Below, piece by piece: positions 1-6,473 of a DNA stretch of 6,473 nucleotides. The stretch covers positions 538,374-544,846 of the forward strand of contig CP070636.1 of assembly GCA_020356305.1 (NCBI GenBank). Direction: 5' to 3'. Position 1 is the first letter of the stretch, and each line of letters starts with the position of its first letter. Made by a program: the position numbers and the translations under genes. The notes under the pieces are model-generated. The model was not told where the DNA came from, made no database searches, and saw only the letters and a program-made list of their open reading frames with translations. This DNA is from Candidatus Bathyarchaeota archaeon (GTDB taxonomy: Archaea > Thermoproteota > Bathyarchaeia > Bathyarchaeales > Bathyarchaeaceae).

Positions 1-1319
1 CATCGGGGAGACGGCTTCCCAGTTTTCATGTCAAAGCATTCCTGATATCTTGTGCCTGATGGTGGATCCGAGAGTTTATCCTTGTAAAGTGACTCAAGGT
101 GTTTCACGATCTCGTTCGCGTCCTCTCGTTTTATTCCGGAAGCGGCGGTTGCATGAGCAACTTCGGCAGCAAACCTAGGTTCTATGGGCGTCAAATAGTC
201 CTCGTGAATCGCCTTTGCAACTCCTACAGCCTCTATGGAGAGACCGGAGATGACAGCCGTTATCACACGCGCCGCAATCTCGTGGAGGACCATCTCCGTG
301 CAAGGTCCAGCTGCGGTGTAGGTCAAGTTTAGTGACAACAAATGGGTGTTCCTGCTGATTGCTTGACCATAAGTACTTATCACCCAAGACAACCCCGGTG
401 CTGTACTACATCTATGTTTCAAGTGTATTGGAAAAACTAGATTACACGTTGCTTGGTACACGAGAACTCCCAGAATATGGTAGGCGGCGGAAGTGATGGC
501 CGTGCCTTCTGGTCCGCCGCAGTAACCGCCGAACACGGGTCCAGCCTCCCCAACAATGCGCCCCCCGAGGTTCAACAGAGCGCAAGCTTTGTTCAGGCGA
601 TCGAAATCTACCTTCAACTCTGCCAGTGCAGCCAGCAGGTATCCATCTGAAGGTCTAAGTCCGTATTGCGGATGGAGGGCTGCGATCAATGACGGCGCTG
701 ACTCTGCCGTTGCAAGTGCGTTCATGATTGGCAGGCCGGGTCTTCCAGCTCTTCTGAGGGCTTCTCTTGCCAAAACAGCGTTTCTTATTGCCCCATAGAT
801 CTCTAAAGGCGAGCTAGTTCTTATTCTTGTTCCATCTACGGAAGTTAGGGCGGGCGTAGTTATAGAATCGGCAAGAGGAATTGAACCATAGCTTTGCACC
901 AAGCTTAAGAGAACCTCCTCAGAGGTTACAGGTGCTCCTCCTGCTCCGATGAAGCACCATGGGGGCGTTTTGTCCTCAGGTTTTCTGGGAACCATAATCT
1001 TAGTATCCTTCCCTTCTCCAAAGCTAGCTTGGGAAGGAGCATTTTTCAGGCCTTCTTTGATCTCGCTTTCATCGAATCTGATTATCCGTTCCGTGTCTTT
1101 GCAGTAAACGCCAACCTCGCGGTAAAGATCGATAGCGGCTCTAAAAACATCGTCAGCCAAACTGTCATCTGAAATAACCGACGACTCTGGGTCATACTTG
1201 ATGTCATACTCTTTTATGAGCTCCCGCAGTTTGGTTGCGAATATCCTTAGGTCATAGTCTCTTTCTGAACAAGGTTTCCCTGTTATGGCTCTATTCACAG
1301 CGTCCAAAAAAGTAACCAA
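1..1319 (-). CDS. MtmB-family monomethylamine methyltransferase homologue lacking pyrrolysine; 3' end beyond left edge
   Basis: MtmB transfers the methyl group of monomethylamine to a corrinoid protein (MtmC) in the cytoplasm. I translated the strand codon by codon: 439 codons, no stop, frame held from 1319 to the edge. Family landmarks in order are KPCSERDYDL (residues 15-24), VYCKDTERI (about 77-85), AGRPGLP (191-197), GEAGPVFGGYCGG (257-269), AGPCTEM (337-343) and RYQECFDMKTGKP near the end. Methanosarcina MtmB is 458 aa, so about 20 C-terminal residues are missing. In MtmB, Pyl202 follows an AGRPGMGV-type segment; here that place is Met199, encoded ATG (725-723). Against MtmB as I remember it, Glu259 is kept (Glu258), while Glu229 and Gln333 align with leucines (228 and 332). 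The start is TTG at 1319, with a GAGGG ribosome site 9 nt upstream. It has its own promoter downstream of the aro operon. Family membership is secure; the substrate is unknown, and the missing pyrrolysine argues against simple monomethylamine chemistry. No mtmC or pyl gene lies in the window. Confidence 0.9.
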   Translation of the reverse strand, partial: MVTFLDAVNRAITGKPCSERDYDLRIFATKLRELIKEYDIKYDPESSVISDDSLADDVFRAAIDLYREVGVYCKDTERIIRFDESEIKEGLKNAPSQASFGEGKDTKIMVPRKPEDKTPPWCFIGAGGAPVTSEEVLLSLVQSYGSIPLADSITTPALTSVDGTRIRTSSPLEIYGAIRNAVLAREALRRAGRPGLPIMNALATAESAPSLIAALHPQYGLRPSDGYLLAALAELKVDFDRLNKACALLNLGGRIVGEAGPVFGGYCGGPEGTAITSAAYHILGVLVYQATCNLVFPIHLKHRCSTAPGLSWVISTYGQAISRNTHLLSLNLTYTAAGPCTEMVLHEIAARVITAVISGLSIEAVGVAKAIHEDYLTPIEPRFAAEVAHATAASGIKREDANEIVKHLESLYKDKLSDPPSGTRYQECFDMKTGKPSPR

Positions 1320-1328
1320 TACAATTCG

Positions 1329-1333
1329 CCCTC
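1329..1333 (-). promoter_or_regulatory. Ribosome binding site of the MtmB-like gene
   Basis: The minus strand reads GAGGG here, 9 nt before a TTG codon at 1319-1317. The protein from that TTG begins MVTFLDAVNRA, which lines up with the N-terminus of MtmB. This supports TTG at 1319 over the in-frame GTG at 1364. Confidence 0.6.
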
Positions 1334-1366
1334 GATTCTTAATAACGGGTTCTGTATCCGCCACCG

Positions 1367-1374
1367 TTTTATAA
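1367..1374 (-). promoter_or_regulatory. Putative archaeal TATA box for the MtmB-like gene
   Basis: The minus strand reads TTATAAAA here, preceded by an A-rich AGTAAACG stretch that could serve as a BRE. Archaeal transcription usually starts about 25 nt downstream of the box centre, which here would be near 1345. That leaves a leader of roughly 25 nt holding the GAGGG site and the TTG start. It also places the alternative GTG at 1364 upstream of the transcript. The prediction is from sequence only. Confidence 0.5.
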
Positions 1375-1448
1375 CGTTTACTCTACCAAGTTTTGTTGTT
1401 TACTCGATATTCCAAAACGCGCGCGCGAGGAATCAGTCTCTACCATGC

Positions 1449-2282
1449 TTACGCTGATCTGCGCATGCCTATCTTCTCTAATTTCGCTTCAACAAATCTC
1501 ATCTTATCAGCGAGTGCTGCTCTGTCTTTTTGACGGACAGCGTCCAGCCATTCCCTCGCTTTTTCGCAGAAAAGACCTTCAACGCTTTCTATCTTTGGCA
1601 AATTCGTTTGAAGGCTAGCACAAAATTCTGGATTTTGAGAAGCAACCGTTTCCGCCAGCGTCAACAGCAGCTTGTAGCTGGTTCCAGCGACTCTCTTTGT
1701 CTCAACAAGGTCAACACAGTTTAACAAAGTGTCATAAACGACTATGCCAATAAAGTGGGGGAGCCCCAAAACCGCCGACATTAGTTCATCATGCTTTTTT
1801 GGAGACATAATGGAAACGTTAACCTGTTTCTCCTCCAACCAACTCTTAAAATCGTCTGCAAATTTCCTTTCCTTGCTGTCAGTTGGAGTGAGAATGAAAT
1901 TTTGGTTTTGAATCTTGTCTGCGCGAGGACCAAACATTGGATGAGTTCCCAACGTTGTCCCATTTTTTATGTACTCATGCATCACTCTCACGGGAAACTC
2001 CTTAACTGAGCAGATGTCCATAACCACCTGGTCTGAACCTACGTGCAAATGTATCTCCTTTACGACCTCTTCGAAGTTCTCGATGGGCACCGATATCAAA
2101 ACTCTGTCAGCACCTTTGACAGCTTTCACGTTGTCAGCGATTTCAACTCCGAGTTCATCTCTTATTCTCAGAAGCTTCTTTTTACTCCTACCTGAAACGA
2201 TAACCTGCATGCCTTCATCCAAAAAAAACTTTGCGAACCATCGCCCCATTTTTCCAGTGCCGCCAATTATTGCCACTTTCAT
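1449..2282 (-). CDS. tyrA: Prephenate (or arogenate) dehydrogenase, TyrA family
   Basis: Oxidatively decarboxylates prephenate to 4-hydroxyphenylpyruvate (or arogenate to tyrosine) with NAD(P)+, in the cytoplasm; it is the committed step to tyrosine. It is 277 aa, a normal length for a stand-alone archaeal TyrA. Residues 1-13 form the dinucleotide-binding start with GGTGKMG (7-13). The second strand ends in SGR (30-32) rather than an acidic residue, which suggests NADP+. Other family marks are DICSVK (89-94), THPMFGP (113-119) with His114, and LPHF (174-177) with His176. I place the start at ATG 2282, because the protein then opens MKVAIIGG and a GAGG site (2293-2290) sits 7 nt upstream. A TTG five codons earlier (2297) is less likely. 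The ATG overlaps the TGA of the aminotransferase as ATGA, implying translational coupling. No chorismate mutase or ACT domain is fused; the mutase is a separate gene in the same operon. Confidence 0.9.
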   Translation of the reverse strand: MKVAIIGGTGKMGRWFAKFFLDEGMQVIVSGRSKKKLLRIRDELGVEIADNVKAVKGADRVLISVPIENFEEVVKEIHLHVGSDQVVMDICSVKEFPVRVMHEYIKNGTTLGTHPMFGPRADKIQNQNFILTPTDSKERKFADDFKSWLEEKQVNVSIMSPKKHDELMSAVLGLPHFIGIVVYDTLLNCVDLVETKRVAGTSYKLLLTLAETVASQNPEFCASLQTNLPKIESVEGLFCEKAREWLDAVRQKDRAALADKMRFVEAKLEKIGMRRSA

Positions 2283-3352
2283 TGCAGCGCCTCGCAAATT
2301 TTTTCGAGCCCCAGCTTGATTTCTTCTTCTGGCATCGTTAACGCTATTCTGAAGTGCTCTAGGTAATCCCCAAAAGAGGTGCCGGGAGTTATCGCTACTC
2401 CTTTGTCCAGCAAATCGAAGGCAAATCTTTCAGATTCCAGATGGTCATACTTTGGAAAGACATAGAAGGGGGCGTCGGGCCTGGTGAATCTTAGCTCCGT
2501 TTTCGAAAGAACCTTGCAGGCTAGATCTGCTCTTCGTCGGTATAGCTCCCTCATCTCTTTTGCGATGCTCTGTCGCATCTCGAGAGCCTTTAGAGCTGCC
2601 TCTTGAACGAAGACTGGAACGTTTGTAAAGGTTATCTGGTTTAGTTTGACCATTTTTCCAGCCAGCTCCTCTCCTGCAACAACGTAGCCTATCCTCCATC
2701 CCGTCATTGCAAACGTTTTGGAAAAACTGTTGACGAGTATGTGATTGCCACCGAAATCTCGAATGCTCTTTGTTCCTACGAAACTTAAATCACGATAAAC
2801 TTCATCAGAAACAACTGCGACTTTCTTTTCATTCGCAACTTCAACAACTTCTTCAAGTATGTTGTTCCCTATGACTTTGCTTGTGGGGTTGTTAGGATTA
2901 CTCAGAATCAGCAGTCGTGTCTGTTCGTCGATTAGATTCCTCAATTTTTCAGGGTCAATTTTCCAGTTGGTATCAATTTCGGTCCTGTAAAATCTTGTTT
3001 CAACTCCAAGACTTTTGGCGGCGATTTCATAAGCAGTCCAGTGTGGGGTTGGAACGACAACGTTTCCTCCATTTTTCAGTAGGAGATACATTATCGAGAA
3101 AAACGCCCACTTTGAACCTGGAATGACGACAACGTTTTCCGCGGAAACCTTGTGGATGTTCGCCAGTTTCTCTCTAAGCGTTTTTTCACCAGCATAGAAG
3201 GAGTATTTTGTCTTTCCCTGCTTCATGGCTTCAAAGGCTGCCATAATTATCTCCTTAGGAGTTGATTGGTCAGGATCCCCAACATTTAATTTTATGATCT
3301 TCTTTCCTTCACTTTCAAGCTCCATTGCCCGTTGACTTATTTCATACAACAT
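2279..3352 (-). CDS. Class I/II PLP aminotransferase, probably aromatic or prephenate aminotransferase
   Basis: A fold-type I PLP enzyme of 357 aa. Visible family features are the substrate-loop GDPDQSTP (25-32), YSFYAG (50-55), SNPNNPTSK (151-159) with the cofactor-contacting Asn, DEVY (183-186) with the PLP Asp and Tyr, SFSKTFAMTGWRIGY (209-223) with the Schiff-base Lys212, PGTSFG (323-328) and Arg335, the expected carboxylate-binding Arg. It is slightly short at the N-terminus compared with about 380-400 aa relatives. An in-frame TGA lies two codons upstream of the ATG, so 3352 is the earliest start. Lying between chorismate mutase and TyrA, it probably transaminates 4-hydroxyphenylpyruvate and phenylpyruvate, or prephenate to arogenate. 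Sequence alone does not separate these from an aspartate aminotransferase. It starts 14 nt after the mutase stop and overlaps tyrA by 4 nt. Confidence 0.88.
   Translation of the reverse strand: MLYEISQRAMELESEGKKIIKLNVGDPDQSTPKEIIMAAFEAMKQGKTKYSFYAGEKTLREKLANIHKVSAENVVVIPGSKWAFFSIMYLLLKNGGNVVVPTPHWTAYEIAAKSLGVETRFYRTEIDTNWKIDPEKLRNLIDEQTRLLILSNPNNPTSKVIGNNILEEVVEVANEKKVAVVSDEVYRDLSFVGTKSIRDFGGNHILVNSFSKTFAMTGWRIGYVVAGEELAGKMVKLNQITFTNVPVFVQEAALKALEMRQSIAKEMRELYRRRADLACKVLSKTELRFTRPDAPFYVFPKYDHLESERFAFDLLDKGVAITPGTSFGDYLEHFRIALTMPEEEIKLGLEKICEALQ
2290..2293 (-). promoter_or_regulatory. Ribosome binding site of tyrA
   Basis: GAGG on the minus strand, 7 nt before ATG 2282 and inside the last codons of the aminotransferase gene. 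It fixes the tyrA start at 2282 and supports coupled translation through the ATGA overlap. Confidence 0.6.
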
Positions 3353-3366
3353 TTTTCATCACTTCT

Positions 3367-3645
3367 CTAAGTTCTGCAACTTTCACGCTCCTGAACACGT
3401 ATGCACATAGCAATTATTCGATCATACACAGCTCTAACATCTTGTGGATTAAGCCCGAGTTGTGAAGCTATTCCCGCTATTCGCGTATACTGCTCATTTT
3501 CTCTATCACGATCCCTCACTGGAACTCCTCGTTCTCGTTTGAGAACTCCAATGTTTTCGCAGACATCTACTCTCTCTTTCAATAGGCGCAGAATCTGCTC
3601 GTCAATCTCGTCGATTCTCTTTCTTAATGTTGACAGCCTCTCCAA
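3367..3645 (-). CDS. aroQ: Chorismate mutase, monofunctional AroQ type
   Basis: Rearranges chorismate to prephenate, the branch point to tyrosine and phenylalanine. It is 92 aa, the size of a single all-helical AroQ domain, which normally works as an intertwined dimer. Compared with the E. coli P-protein mutase domain, the catalytic set appears complete with a constant offset of 3: Arg8, Arg25, Lys36, Asp45, Arg48, Glu49 and Gln85 match Arg11, Arg28, Lys39, Asp48, Arg51, Glu52 and Gln88. The start is TTG at 3645, one base after the aroC TAG stop, with GGAG (3659-3656) 10 nt upstream. Longer readings of the frame only overlap aroC with low-quality sequence. Its stop is 14 nt before the aminotransferase ATG, so it sits in the middle of the aro operon. 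No ACT or dehydrogenase domain is attached. Confidence 0.92.
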   Translation of the reverse strand: MERLSTLRKRIDEIDEQILRLLKERVDVCENIGVLKRERGVPVRDRDRENEQYTRIAGIASQLGLNPQDVRAVYDRIIAMCIRVQERESCRT

Positions 3646-3646
3646 C

Positions 3647-4759
3647 CTATTTCTTCTCCTGCAAAACTTTCGGTATGACCCCTGCCCGAAGCATATGATC
3701 AACCAGAACCGCTGCAACCGCAGATTCAATAACAGGAACAGCCTTCGGCACAATACAGGGATCGTGTCTGCCCCCGACTTGAATCAGTGTTTCTTCCATT
3801 TTTGGCAGATTGACGCTGCTATGTTTTTTCAATATGGAAGGAGTTGGTTTTATTGCAGCCCTAACCACGATCGGCATTCCGGAAGACATCCCCCCCAAAA
3901 CACCGCCCGAATTGTTTGTGGATGTTACAACTTTCCCGCTGCTTATCGCATAGCCATCATTGTTTTCTGATCCTTTCAATTTAGCAGCTTCAAACCCTGC
4001 GCCGAACTCCACTGCCTTGATCGCTGGTACCGTAAATAGCATCTTGGCGATGTCAGCGTCCAAGGAGTCGAATATCGGTTCGCCTACTCCCACTGGAACG
4101 TTCAAGGCGACACACTCGACAGCACCGCCAATGCTATCACCTTCACTCTTTGCCTTCAAGATTGCCTCTTCCATGGCTTTTGCACATTCTAAGTCGGGGC
4201 ATCTAACTGCGCTCTTGTACGTGTTCCTCCGAATTTCTTCAATTGTAAGTTTCTTCTCAACTTTAATCTTACCTATACTAGTTGAATAAGCCAGAACTTC
4301 TACGCCGACAAGAGCTAGAAGTTTCTTGGCTATAGCGCCGGCCATCACAAAAGCCACGGTAAGTCGGCCCGAAAATCTCCCTCCACCACGATAGTCGCCG
4401 AAGCCTCCATACTTGATTCGAGCGGGGTAATCTGCATGTCCGGGTCTAGGTATGTCCCTAATTTTGTGGTATTCGCTGGGAACAGCTTCTTCGTTCCAAA
4501 CTAGGGTGCAGATGGGGGCGCCAGTTGTAAAACCGTTAAAGATTCCTGAGAGAACTTCAACGACGTCTTTTTCTCTTCGGGCAGATACGATCGCGGATTT
4601 AGGAGGAACTCTCTTGTCCATTTCTCTTTGAATGTCCTTTTTGGAAAGGGAAAGACCAGCCGGGCAACCGTCCACAACAACTCCTACGCATCTGCCGTGG
4701 CTCTCGCCGAAACAAGTCACAACAAAATCTTTGCCTATAGAATTACCTGCCAACAACAT
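3647..4759 (-). CDS. aroC: Chorismate synthase
   Basis: Removes phosphate from EPSP by 1,4-elimination to give chorismate, using reduced FMN; cytoplasmic, last step of the common shikimate pathway. It is 370 aa, full length. Family signatures are FGESHG (17-22), RPGHAD (105-110), a RGGGRFSGR segment (124-132), the NNSGGVLGG segment (282-290) and RHDPC (331-335). The ATG at 4759 is only 3 nt from a GGAG site (4766-4763). The TTG codons at 4756 and 4753 have spacings of 6 and 9 nt, and the one at 4753 would give the usual MAGNSIGK opening, so the true start may be 4753. The 5' end overlaps aroA by up to 17 nt and the 3' end is one base from the mutase start, so all three genes are probably co-translated from one mRNA. 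Confidence 0.95.
   Translation of the reverse strand: MLLAGNSIGKDFVVTCFGESHGRCVGVVVDGCPAGLSLSKKDIQREMDKRVPPKSAIVSARREKDVVEVLSGIFNGFTTGAPICTLVWNEEAVPSEYHKIRDIPRPGHADYPARIKYGGFGDYRGGGRFSGRLTVAFVMAGAIAKKLLALVGVEVLAYSTSIGKIKVEKKLTIEEIRRNTYKSAVRCPDLECAKAMEEAILKAKSEGDSIGGAVECVALNVPVGVGEPIFDSLDADIAKMLFTVPAIKAVEFGAGFEAAKLKGSENNDGYAISSGKVVTSTNNSGGVLGGMSSGMPIVVRAAIKPTPSILKKHSSVNLPKMEETLIQVGGRHDPCIVPKAVPVIESAVAAVLVDHMLRAGVIPKVLQEKK
3656..3659 (-). promoter_or_regulatory. Ribosome binding site of the chorismate mutase gene
   Basis: GGAG on the minus strand, inside the last codons of aroC and 10 nt before TTG 3645. Together with the length of the AroQ domain it decides the TTG start. Confidence 0.55.
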
Positions 4760-5609
4760 CCGCTCCTAACAAACGTAAATCATCAAAGAAGTTTGGATAA
4801 GATTTTCTAACGCACTCAGAGTTTTCAATTCTCGTCTCGCCACTCGCTCCCAGAGCAGCAACGGCGCACGCCATAGCAATCCGATGGTCGTTGTGGGGAT
4901 TAATTGTCGCTCCGTGCAGTGGAGATTGCCCCCTTATGATGAGCCCGTCTTCAATCATTTCGATGTGTGCACCCATTTTCTTTAACTCGGTATAAAGGGA
5001 AGAAAGCCTATCAGATTCCTTGTACCGAAGTCTCCTGGCGTCGTATAATTTGGATGTTCCTTTCGAATAGCATGCCAAGACGGCGCAAACTGGAACCAAG
5101 TCAGGAATATCTTTTGCATCCACAGCCACGGCGTTGAGTTGCCTTCCTTCGACTTCAATGCTCTCGTCCTCAACTCTTACTTTTGAGCCCATTTTCTTCA
5201 ATATGTCCAATATTGCCTTGTCTCCTTGCGTGGTACGGTGATCAAGATTCTTCACCTTGGTTTTTGAGCATGTTATAGCCGAGGCGGCTAGAAGAAAAGA
5301 TGCGGAGGAGAAGTCTCCAGGAACCGTGTGATCCCATGGGCTATAGTTTTGGTTAGATGGAACTCTCAGTTGCATGAAATTGTTATACGCACATGCTTTG
5401 ATGCCGTGTTTTTCGAGGACCTCAAGGCTCATTTGAATGTAGCTTCTGGATTCCAGAGGTGTAGTGACTAAGATTTCAGTGTCTTCCTCTGCCCTTGGGC
5501 ATGCAAACAACAGGCCTGAGATGAACTGGGAGCTTATGTCTCCCCTTATGGATGCTTTTCCTCCCTTTATCCCTCCGCCGTGAACCTTAACTATCGCGCC
5601 TGTTTCACA
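4743..5609 (-). CDS. aroA: EPSP synthase (3-phosphoshikimate 1-carboxyvinyltransferase), N-terminus missing
   Basis: Joins shikimate 3-phosphate and PEP to form EPSP. About 288 C-terminal residues are present of a usual 420 or so. Counting from Cys1 at 5609, recognised motifs are the GGGIKGG segment (11-17), GDISSQF (23-29), SRSYIQMSLE (54-63), GDFSSASF (98-105), DIPDLVP (167-173), LRYKESDR (194-201) and DHRIAMA (241-247). Roughly the first 135 residues, including the phosphate-binding GNSGTT-type region, are absent. Upstream of 5609 the frame continues only as unrelated residues to a TGA at 5633-5631. The sequence there instead belongs to the pseudouridine synthase on the other strand. The TTG at 5510 is not a credible start because homology continues upstream of it. 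The break is probably an assembly chimera rather than a natural pseudogene. The 3' end overlaps aroC. Confidence 0.9.
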   Translation of the reverse strand, partial: CETGAIVKVHGGGIKGGKASIRGDISSQFISGLLFACPRAEEDTEILVTTPLESRSYIQMSLEVLEKHGIKACAYNNFMQLRVPSNQNYSPWDHTVPGDFSSASFLLAASAITCSKTKVKNLDHRTTQGDKAILDILKKMGSKVRVEDESIEVEGRQLNAVAVDAKDIPDLVPVCAVLACYSKGTSKLYDARRLRYKESDRLSSLYTELKKMGAHIEMIEDGLIIRGQSPLHGATINPHNDHRIAMACAVAALGASGETRIENSECVRKSYPNFFDDLRLLGADVVGR

Positions 5610-5616
5610 TTGTTGA
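5603..5616. other. Chimeric junction between an archaeal-like and a bacterial-like segment
   Basis: Left of this point the minus strand reads good EPSP synthase down to CETGAIVKV. Right of it the plus strand reads a pseudouridine synthase from VDPEKDVITVNG. Neither protein has homology across the point: EPSP synthase lacks its N-terminal third and the pseudouridine synthase lacks its S4 domain. Two 5'-truncated genes joined head to head is the usual look of a chimera. Confidence 0.75.
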
Positions 5617-6202
5617 TCCCGAAAAGGACGTCATAACCGTAAACGGTAAAAAAATTCACGCAGCGCTAAAAGTATATTTTCTTTTGAATAAGCCCAGGGG
5701 AGTGATTTGCACTAATCGTGATCCCCAGGGCAGGAAAAAGGCGATAGATATCGTCACATCCGGCGAGCGTATTTTTTGTGTCGGAAGACTTGATGCCGAT
5801 ACCACAGGAATAATTATCCTCACTAACGACAGCGAATTGGCGAACAGATTAACGCATCCAAGATATGGATTGGCTAAAACCTATGTTGTCAGGGTCAAGG
5901 GGCAAATTAGCGGCGAGGCGGTCGAAAAGTTAAAGAGAGGAATTTGGCTGGCTAAAGGCAAAACCGCCAGGTCATCAGTAAAAATATTAAGACGCAGCCA
6001 TAAAGAATCATTGGTTGAAATTTCTATTCGGCAGGGCCTTAAACGGCAGATTCGCAGAATGCTGGCGAGAGTAGGCTTGCCTGTGAAATCGCTAAAGAGA
6101 ACACAGATAGGCAAACTCAATGCCCGGGGCCTCGGTGTCGGCAAATTCAGAACACTAACCAAAGCTGAAGTGGCATATCTGAAGAAAGCTACGATCGGCT
6201 AA
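5612..6202 (+). CDS. RsuA/RluB/E/F-family rRNA pseudouridine synthase, N-terminal S4 domain missing
   Basis: This family isomerises a specific uridine of 16S or 23S rRNA to pseudouridine. The 196 residues present begin at the end of the S4 linker (VDPEKD, then VNGKKI) and contain NKPRG (26-30), GRLDADTTG (58-66) with the catalytic Asp61 (GAT, 5792-5794), LTNDSELANRLTHPRYGLAKTY, KRQIRRM and LKRTQIGKL. The common family motif EGRNRQ(V/I)RRM is changed here to QGLKRQIRRM. The gene ends at TAA 6202 with KKATIG. The preceding 50-60 residues of S4 domain and the start codon are lost at the junction. The TTG at 5684 lies inside the homologous region and is not a start. The family is bacterial and generally absent from archaea, unlike the genes to the left. 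I cannot tell RsuA, RluB, RluE and RluF apart here. Confidence 0.9.
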   Translation, partial: VDPEKDVITVNGKKIHAALKVYFLLNKPRGVICTNRDPQGRKKAIDIVTSGERIFCVGRLDADTTGIIILTNDSELANRLTHPRYGLAKTYVVRVKGQISGEAVEKLKRGIWLAKGKTARSSVKILRRSHKESLVEISIRQGLKRQIRRMLARVGLPVKSLKRTQIGKLNARGLGVGKFRTLTKAEVAYLKKATIG

Positions 6203-6297
6203 TTGGCTGCTTCAATAAGAGCCGATGAAATATTAAGCGTGTCTTTAAAGAAGAAGCATTTTGTTGGATAATAATGGCGATTTACCCAATATAATTA

Positions 6298-6313
6298 CGA
6301 GGTTTTGGCCTCG
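6298..6313. repeat. Short inverted repeat, 5-bp stem
   Basis: CGAGG, a TTTTGG loop, then CCTCG. The stem is perfect but only 5 bp long; it might form part of a bidirectional terminator between the converging genes. Confidence 0.35.
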
Positions 6314-6333
6314 GCGGATGTTTCGGTAGGCTC

Positions 6334-6359
6334 CCATTTTGCGACTTATTTCCAAATGG
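6334..6359. repeat. Inverted repeat, 6-bp arms, 14-nt spacer
   Basis: CCATTT at 6334-6339 pairs with AAATGG at 6354-6359. GGCTCC lies just before it and GTGTCCCCC just after. It could be a dispersed palindromic element or a transcript-end hairpin; the window has no second copy to compare. Confidence 0.3.
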
Positions 6360-6378
6360 TGTCCCCCTGATAACGGTC

Positions 6379-6473
6379 TTAGAAGAAGGGGTAAATAAAC
6401 GGTGCTATTGCCGTACCGCCCAGCAGTAGGAGCAAACCCATAAGAAGCAGTACAATTAGTATAGGCAGGAGCC
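6379..6473 (-). CDS. Small hydrophobic membrane protein, C-terminal part; start beyond right edge
   Basis: The frame enters at the right edge and ends at TAA 6381-6379 after 30 readable residues. They are almost all hydrophobic: LLPILIVLLLMGLLLLLGG, then a tail ending APFIYPFF. This is one transmembrane helix of about 18-20 residues with a short aromatic C-terminal tail. A run this hydrophobic over 90 nt without a stop suggests a real coding end. An in-frame ATG at residue 11 could only give a 20-residue peptide, so the gene more likely begins outside. It converges on the pseudouridine synthase gene. I do not recognise the family. Confidence 0.45.
   Translation of the reverse strand, partial: LLPILIVLLLMGLLLLLGGTAIAPFIYPFF

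Follow-up and report, generated by a model that had tools for sequence, protein, structure and literature searches.

The window, by which we mean the whole stretch of 6,473 nucleotides of Bathyarchaeota DNA that was analysed, carries an mtmB-like gene that belongs to a branch of the MtmB family without pyrrolysine. An earlier note on this DNA had raised the possibility of such a branch, and the branch itself is well supported: it forms a clade with a support of 100/100, all 57 branch loci compared have methionine or leucine at the pyrrolysine position, corrinoid partner genes accompany many of the relatives and the substitution pattern points to purifying selection. We think it reasonably probable that the gene product is an active, corrinoid-dependent N-methyltransferase, which works without pyrrolysine on a substrate that we infer and which feeds tetrahydromethanopterin (H4MPT) via MtrH.

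Pyrrolysine is usually presented as what enables the demethylation of methylamine, and the pyrrolysine imine of MtmB is held to bind methylamine and to present its methyl group to Co(I). Homologues of MtmB without pyrrolysine are already known as a kind, to which the window gene adds a further member. According to PMC13044021, which presents a tree of 1,061 sequences and names Asgard archaea and proteobacteria, they have long been known, and enzymes outside the pyrrolysine and MtqB clades are called of unknown function; members of the window branch may well be contained in that tree. The function of MtqB was assigned in 2026. Without pyrrolysine, it transfers methyl groups to cob(I)alamin at rates of 37 nmol/min/mg from tetramethylammonium, 42 from choline and 11 from methylamine, with none for trimethylamine and glycine betaine, and its ligand site includes a conserved Met and Cys at logo positions 4 and 5 (PMC13044021). 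The window protein has a Met as well, though this may not be the residue meant there. The analogy to MtgB, by which the earlier note had framed a pyrrolysine-free branch, has thus ceased to be the sole precedent, MtqB now having a demonstrated substrate (PMC13044021). Our search of open-licence PMC turned up no account of this branch as a group, and PMC13044021 was the sole paper found there on the function of MtmB homologues without pyrrolysine.

Reading frame, family and modelled fold

The coding sequence occupies 1..1319 on the minus strand and is cut by the left edge of the window. It reads as 439 codons without a stop and hence without TAG. Close relatives on other contigs (P0003 and P0006, 97-98% identity) are 458 aa long and start at the position of TTG 1319, so that the window gene is 3'-truncated and lacks about 19 C-terminal residues. 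The start codon is probably TTG 1319-1317. GTG 1364 was disfavoured as a start in view of a conserved TATA-like element at 1379-1367. This element, AAACGTTATAAAA (1367..1379, minus strand), is a candidate archaeal promoter element of the mtmB-like gene. It is identical in the window and in the nearest orthologues L001 (Bathyarchaeota JAOUMI010000002.1) and L002 (CP070759.1), within a diverging intergenic stretch between the prephenate dehydrogenase gene and mtmB, and is unmatched in the 82% relative L003; going by the archaeal consensus, we take it to be probably a BRE/TATA element. A scan for sigma-70 promoters and terminators gave values close to those of shuffled sequences.

Among the Pfam families the protein matched MtmB (PF05369) only, with 324.8 bits (gathering cut-off 25) and over positions 2-431 of the 450 in the profile, and no NCBIfam model matched it at E <= 0.001. 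The MtmB-like frame that had been read over the whole visible length was thus confirmed. An AlphaFold model built with 31 sequences had a mean pLDDT of 90.1 and superimposed on MtmB of M. barkeri (1NTH/1L2Q) with a TM score of 0.92 at 1.5 Å. Together, the profile score and the predicted TIM-barrel fold place the protein in the MtmB superfamily. It is not MtmB proper: position 202 has neither pyrrolysine nor a TAG codon, and the protein does not group with pyrrolysine-containing MtmB (Pyl-MtmB) in the trees.

With M. barkeri MtmB (1NTH/1L2Q/1TV2) the window protein shares the family, the length, the modelled fold, the GRPG segment and the equivalents of Asp226, Glu259 and Tyr335. It differs from it in overall sequence (33% identity), in Met for Pyl202 and in Leu for both Glu229 and Gln333; positions 229, 259, 333 and 335 were compared across the aligned sequences. 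MtgB and the other enzymes of the MttB superfamily without pyrrolysine (COG5598) are likewise pyrrolysine-free relatives of a pyrrolysine methyltransferase, and the MttB-superfamily structures 2QNE and 9YCE matched the model at E values of 4e-8 to 1e-6. They belong, however, to another superfamily, with TM scores of 0.55-0.57 on the query at 12-13% identity; over all MttB-superfamily structures compared, TM scores were only 0.47-0.58.

Methionine at the pyrrolysine position

Residue 199 of the window protein is a methionine within the segment AGRPGLPIMN, encoded by ATG at 723..725 on the minus strand (725-723). When aligned by phmmer with M. barkeri MtmB (1L2Q, 7.9e-64), it stands opposite Pyl202, gap-free from AGRPG to this position; the pairing of Met199 with Pyl202 rests on this sequence alignment and not on the structural superposition. 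Both the coordinates and the residue that had been reported earlier for the pyrrolysine site agree with this alignment. The same methionine is found in other assemblies, namely in P0003 and P0006 and in L001 and L002 (87-91% identity).

For counts within the branch we used loci with an identity of >=45% to the window protein over >=400 aa, 57 unique ones in all; G378 and G446:C109 (broken or short matches) as well as further PF05369 matches without loci were left uncounted. The earlier suggestion to check whether the position is always free of pyrrolysine in relatives has a clear answer within this set: Met in 53 loci and Leu in 4, followed by Asn in all and with an internal stop in none. A few stops were listed in the genome matches of the Thermoplasmata set with 50-56% identity; read from the start codon, the 57 loci contain none. 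The typical motif is G-x-P-x-M-N, and the branch occurs in Bathyarchaeia, Thorarchaeia and Thermoplasmata.

More distant sequences are more varied. P0080 and P0220, which fall in the same tree clade, have Val. Among 166 sequences aligned with 1L2Q, a set biased to relatives of the window protein, the column held M 129 times, V 9, I 8, L 7 and X 3 times, along with ten others; X denotes pyrrolysine, and two of the three come from one gene of genome G039. With more distant hits included (290 rows) the column read M 149, H 32, gap 19, K 12, V 11 and many more, differing by branch, and some of the K or Q may go back to pyrrolysine as translated or to a recoded TAG. P0193 from Methanococcoides methylutens also has Met at this position, yet it groups with Pyl-MtmB, so that Met at the pyrrolysine position probably has two origins. 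Another MtmB relative, L036 (G009:C234:2059-3441), contains a single internal TAG; since this lies about 50 residues beyond the pyrrolysine position, we rejected it as a Pyl-MtmB.

A separate branch under purifying selection

The first protein search scored 7996 candidates; 1405 of them had E <= 1e-3, and 120 of these were listed. In a tree of 78 rows the window protein fell into a clade of 46 rows with a support of 100/99, apart from Pyl-MtmB. In a second tree of 76 rows it was placed in a clade of 35 rows (100/100) inside one of 48 rows (100/100), and Pyl-MtmB stood elsewhere together with P0193 (19 rows, 97/90).

PF05369 was found in 20 of the 250 genomes sampled from the class of CP070759.1, and at least seven of these 20 contain the window branch (G001, G002, G003, G013, G020, G249 and G252). 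In the class of the Thorarchaeon G005 the window protein had matches in 8/47 genomes, at 54-57% identity. In the Thermoplasmata class of G006, 43 of 200 genomes had matches, which split into 20 genomes at 50-56% and 23 at 31-35% identity, with no genome having both. Full-length copies of the latter set contain TAG, which stood at the pyrrolysine position in all 12 that were inspected. Genome G039 contains one TAG-containing Pyl-MtmB and at least five stop-free MtmB genes (at L049, L062 and other places); one of its proteins is identical to P0122 of Ca. Hecatella orcuttiae.

Compared with L001, whose protein is 91% identical, the window gene has a dN of 0.052 and a dS of 0.762, i.e. a ratio of about 0.07; compared with L002 the values are 0.075 and 0.826. 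For the neighbouring prephenate dehydrogenase gene, dN and dS to L001 are 0.093 and 0.525. Judged by these substitution rates, the mtmB-like gene is under purifying selection; together with the same Met in independent assemblies, this rejects both a sequencing error and a relic.

Aromatic amino acid block of the window

The minus strand upstream of the mtmB-like gene carries a block for aromatic amino acids. Prephenate dehydrogenase (PDH; 1449..2282; PF02153, PF20463) lies immediately upstream, as in L001 and L002, and is preceded by a class I/II aminotransferase (AAT; 2279..3352; PF00155), a chorismate mutase with uncertain start (CM; 3367..3753; PF01817; TIGR01791 at 67.6 bits against a cut-off of 66.95), the chorismate synthase AroC (3647..4759; PF01264; NF003793 over cut-off) and the EPSP synthase AroA (4743..5607). 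According to tblastn and to the nucleotide alignment with L001, the N-terminal third of AroA is missing at a probable assembly junction: the match of residues 142-427 of the L001 AroA ends at 5606, and the window is colinear with L001 over 8-5607 at 83.5% DNA identity. The gene order aroA-aroC-CM-AAT-PDH-mtmB is common to the window, L001 and L002. Beyond about 5607 the window is not colinear with its relatives, the colinearity with L001 stopping inside aroA. The plus strand of 5607-6473 carries a 5'-truncated RsuA-type pseudouridine synthase gene, which is probably foreign, and the AT skew changes sign at this place. The junction at 5607 is likely chimeric.

Partner genes in relatives

The earlier note had pointed to a corrinoid protein gene next to mtmB as a check. 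It was found in much of the branch and is missing beside the nearest orthologues, the window itself being cut at the left edge. A gene for an MtxC-type corrinoid protein lies within 1.2 kb of mtmB in 35/57 branch loci and is absent at that range in 22/57; among the loci with >=1.5 kb of upstream sequence it is present in 30 of 47. Usually it is located 5-30 nt upstream of mtmB. In four of the 57 loci an MtrH gene follows less than 1 kb away on the same strand. The distance is 107-122 nt in L004, L048 and L094, which also have a RACo gene within 1.4 kb, and 832 nt in L100. The gene families of the L048 set were confirmed by profile search.

Near the L002 orthologue no corrinoid gene was found within 8 kb on either side, and near the L001 orthologue none in the 8 kb upstream or the 2.6 kb downstream. 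L003 has mtxC 425 nt downstream of its mtmB-like gene; in the 0.5 kb upstream, where the contig ends, we saw no similarity to the window PDH gene. G001 and G002, the nearest genomes, belong to one genus, and in both the orthologue closes the aroA-aroC-CM-AAT-PDH block. At a distance of about 13 kb, on the far side of the same amino acid genes (those outside the window were named by eye), stands a set comprising a saccharopine-dehydrogenase-like gene, mtxC, mtmB2, mtrH and RACo; in G002 this set is followed by mttB and a second mtxC. From this arrangement, the partner proteins of the nearest orthologues are probably supplied in trans.

Several further features recur in these neighbourhoods. In Thermoplasmata, two tandem mttB-like genes precede mtxC-mtmB on the same strand at L237, L241, L242, L243 and L153, and several of these genomes also have an mtmB coupled to a dimethylargininase-like hydrolase gene (see below). 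In Thorarchaeia, a conserved gene without Pfam match follows mtxC-mtmB on the opposite strand (L091 6053-15695, L093, L107), and at several loci genes for an Opp/Dpp-type ABC transporter and a solute-binding protein precede mtxC-mtmB. A saccharopine/carboxynorspermidine dehydrogenase-like gene, with carboxyspermidine dehydrogenase as best match (94 bits), adjoins mtxC-mtmB in Bathyarchaeia (L048 8222-9439, L004 6026-7276); the same type, at about 30%, occurs near mtmB in some Thermoplasmata loci, e.g. L140 13582-14766. It was considered as a partner gene and set aside, since the match leaves its role ambiguous. Inspection by eye of the ORF starts of 14 neighbourhoods revealed no choline or betaine transporter.

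A dimethylargininase-like neighbour in Thermoplasmata

In 8/57 branch loci, all from Thermoplasmata, mtmB is preceded on its own strand by a dimethylargininase-like gene. At seven of them (L140, 8318-10542; L114, L147, L149, L154, L155 and L156) the hydrolase gene is directly adjacent, and exactly these seven encode the motif REGKP[FL]MNT, whose lysine is located three residues before the pyrrolysine position; their MtmB proteins form one clade (100/100). At the eighth, L244 (G303), the hydrolase gene is 376 nt upstream and the motif is RQGIPFMNT, without the lysine. The remaining 49 loci have neither the hydrolase gene nor the REGKP[FL]MNT motif. Against the PDB the L140 hydrolase scored up to 161 bits with DDAH and <=29 bits with Sll1336/Alr4995, which we take to be arginine dihydrolases. 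The NCBIfam dimethylargininase model gave 174-182 bits for three of the proteins, below its curated cut-off of 340.

At >=48% identity the hydrolase gene was found in 16 of the 200 Thermoplasmata-class genomes (in three only in part). All of these belong to the 20 genomes with the window-type MtmB; the 23 TAG-type genomes contribute none. The other two classes showed no association: in Thorarchaeia a hydrolase match of >=45% occurred in 6/8 genomes with branch MtmB and in 22/39 without, and in the class of G002, where 24 of 250 genomes matched at >=55%, these 24 include none of the seven branch genomes. G001 has a match at 42% and G002 has none. We therefore rejected the idea that dimethylargininase marks the branch in general, the association being confined to Thermoplasmata among the three classes. 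Since the link fails outside Thermoplasmata, it says little about the window. In open-licence PMC, none of the 10 papers listed out of 181 matches mentions the hydrolase.

Pyrrolysine machinery

Of the suggested pyl genes, those for PylS, PylB, PylD and tRNA-Pyl were sought in the complete chromosome CP070759.1, to which the Bathyarchaeon of the window is probably related, with a mixed outcome. There, pylSn, pylSc and pylB adjoin (L047 10149-12411), all over their NCBIfam cut-offs. No PylD was over cut-off in this chromosome, whose examined sequence has masked stretches, and no tRNA-Pyl was found near pylS in L047, where the sole tRNA (8338-8238) reads CAT. The pylSn-pylSc-pylB genes are possibly a remnant pyrrolysine system. 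Owing to their presence, a complete loss of the pyrrolysine machinery cannot be claimed for the lineage. In wider sets, the C-terminal domain of PylS was over cut-off in 1/12 genomes (CP070759.1), its N-terminal domain in 2/25 (G002, G048) and PylD in 2/25 (G039, G048). The two MtmB genes of CP070759.1 and the MttB gene beside its mtxC-mtmB2 set are all free of TAG. A TAG-free MttB at L048 1592-3025 scored 540.9 with the NCBIfam equivalog TIGR02369 (trimeth_pyl), above the cut-off of 525, so that this model may not separate pyrrolysine enzymes from those without.

Discussion

How could such an enzyme demethylate an amine? In the reading we favour, an N-methylated amine would bind in the TIM barrel where MtmB has its pyrrolysine-methylamine adduct, and the enzyme would offer a methyl group to the Co(I) corrinoid on a small MtxC-type protein, whose active state a RACo-type reductase would maintain. 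From there MtrH would pass the methyl group on to tetrahydromethanopterin, for use in the Wood-Ljungdahl pathway rather than for methane. In addition to the methyl transfer itself, its direction and H4MPT as the sink, we infer that the substrate is charged. The Pyl202 residue of MtmB has its anchor on a strand of the barrel (PMC9842639). Met199 together with the loss of the equivalents of Glu229 and Gln333 may yield an apolar pocket, which would match donors that are by nature good leaving groups, for instance a quaternary amine or a sulfonium; we propose that pyrrolysine would not be needed because such a substrate is already activated by its own positive charge. This picture presumes that residues 226, 229, 259, 333 and 335 of MtmB line the pocket. 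A charged donor need not be compulsory, since MtqB has low activity with monomethylamine (PMC13044021).

MtqB itself offers a closely related alternative, namely that the window enzyme is an MtqB-type choline/tetramethylammonium methyltransferase proper. Both belong to the MtmB superfamily and lack pyrrolysine, and MtqB has an adjacent corrinoid gene as do the 35 branch loci with mtxC; P0193, a candidate for the MtqB type, shares the Met at the pyrrolysine position. On the other hand, MtqB is a methanogen enzyme feeding CoM (PMC13044021), and P0193, an unproven candidate, is only 32% identical to the window protein and lies in the 19-row Pyl-MtmB clade, outside the 35- and 48-row clades. Because the branch is far from P0193, the only Methanococcoides MtmB without pyrrolysine that was found, the substrate of MtqB cannot be transferred to it, and we regard this alternative as unlikely. 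The hydrolase neighbours could instead mean that the branch handles simple methylamines or methylarginine without pyrrolysine: the dimethylargininase would release methylamine or dimethylamine, or leave methylarginine, from which the MtmB-like enzyme would take the methyl group. The eight upstream hydrolase genes, the coincidence of seven of them with the lysine motif in a single 100/100 clade, the DDAH match of L140 and the confinement of all 16 hydrolase genomes to the window-type set argue for this. Against it stand the NCBIfam scores below cut-off and the lack of association in Thorarchaeia and in the class of G002; moreover, the Thermoplasmata pattern may reflect one inherited event, and the window protein is without the lysine. 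We consider it improbable. In a broader form, the G-x-P-x-M-N branch as a whole would represent an ancient pyrrolysine-independent demethylation of uncharged or guanidino-bound methylamines, with the lysine sub-branch forming a methylarginine-catabolic operon with dimethylargininase and the window enzyme acting on a related N-methyl amino compound; this seems a long shot to us.

The place of the gene at the end of the aromatic block, conserved in L001 and L002 where no corrinoid gene is adjacent, could also mean that a non-methylotrophic enzyme was recruited to amino acid metabolism. L003 speaks against this, with mtxC close downstream and an upstream sequence unlike the PDH gene, as do the TATA-like element between mtmB and the block and the mtmB paralogue with corrinoid and MtrH genes at the other end of the block, so that we hold recruitment to be quite doubtful. 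An artefact, be it an ATG called in place of TAG or the decay of a former pyrrolysine gene, is refuted and has practically no chance left: it has in its favour only that CP070759.1 keeps pylSn, pylSc and pylB without a PylD over cut-off, and is opposed by the recurrence of this residue across independent assemblies and among relatives that belong to three archaeal classes, by the open frame and by the dN/dS of about 0.07.

For a pyrrolysine-independent N-methyltransferase of this branch, the substrate is directly testable, there being many members with clear partner genes and a good structural template. The dimethylargininase coupling provides a specific first guess at a substrate for one sub-branch. 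Methylamine use in Bathyarchaeia (PMC8407382) and in Thermoplasmata (PMC11264602) has been inferred partly from genes annotated as mtmB. Since mtmB hits of the branch described here carry Met or Leu instead of pyrrolysine, inferences of methylamine use that are based on mtmB need checking.
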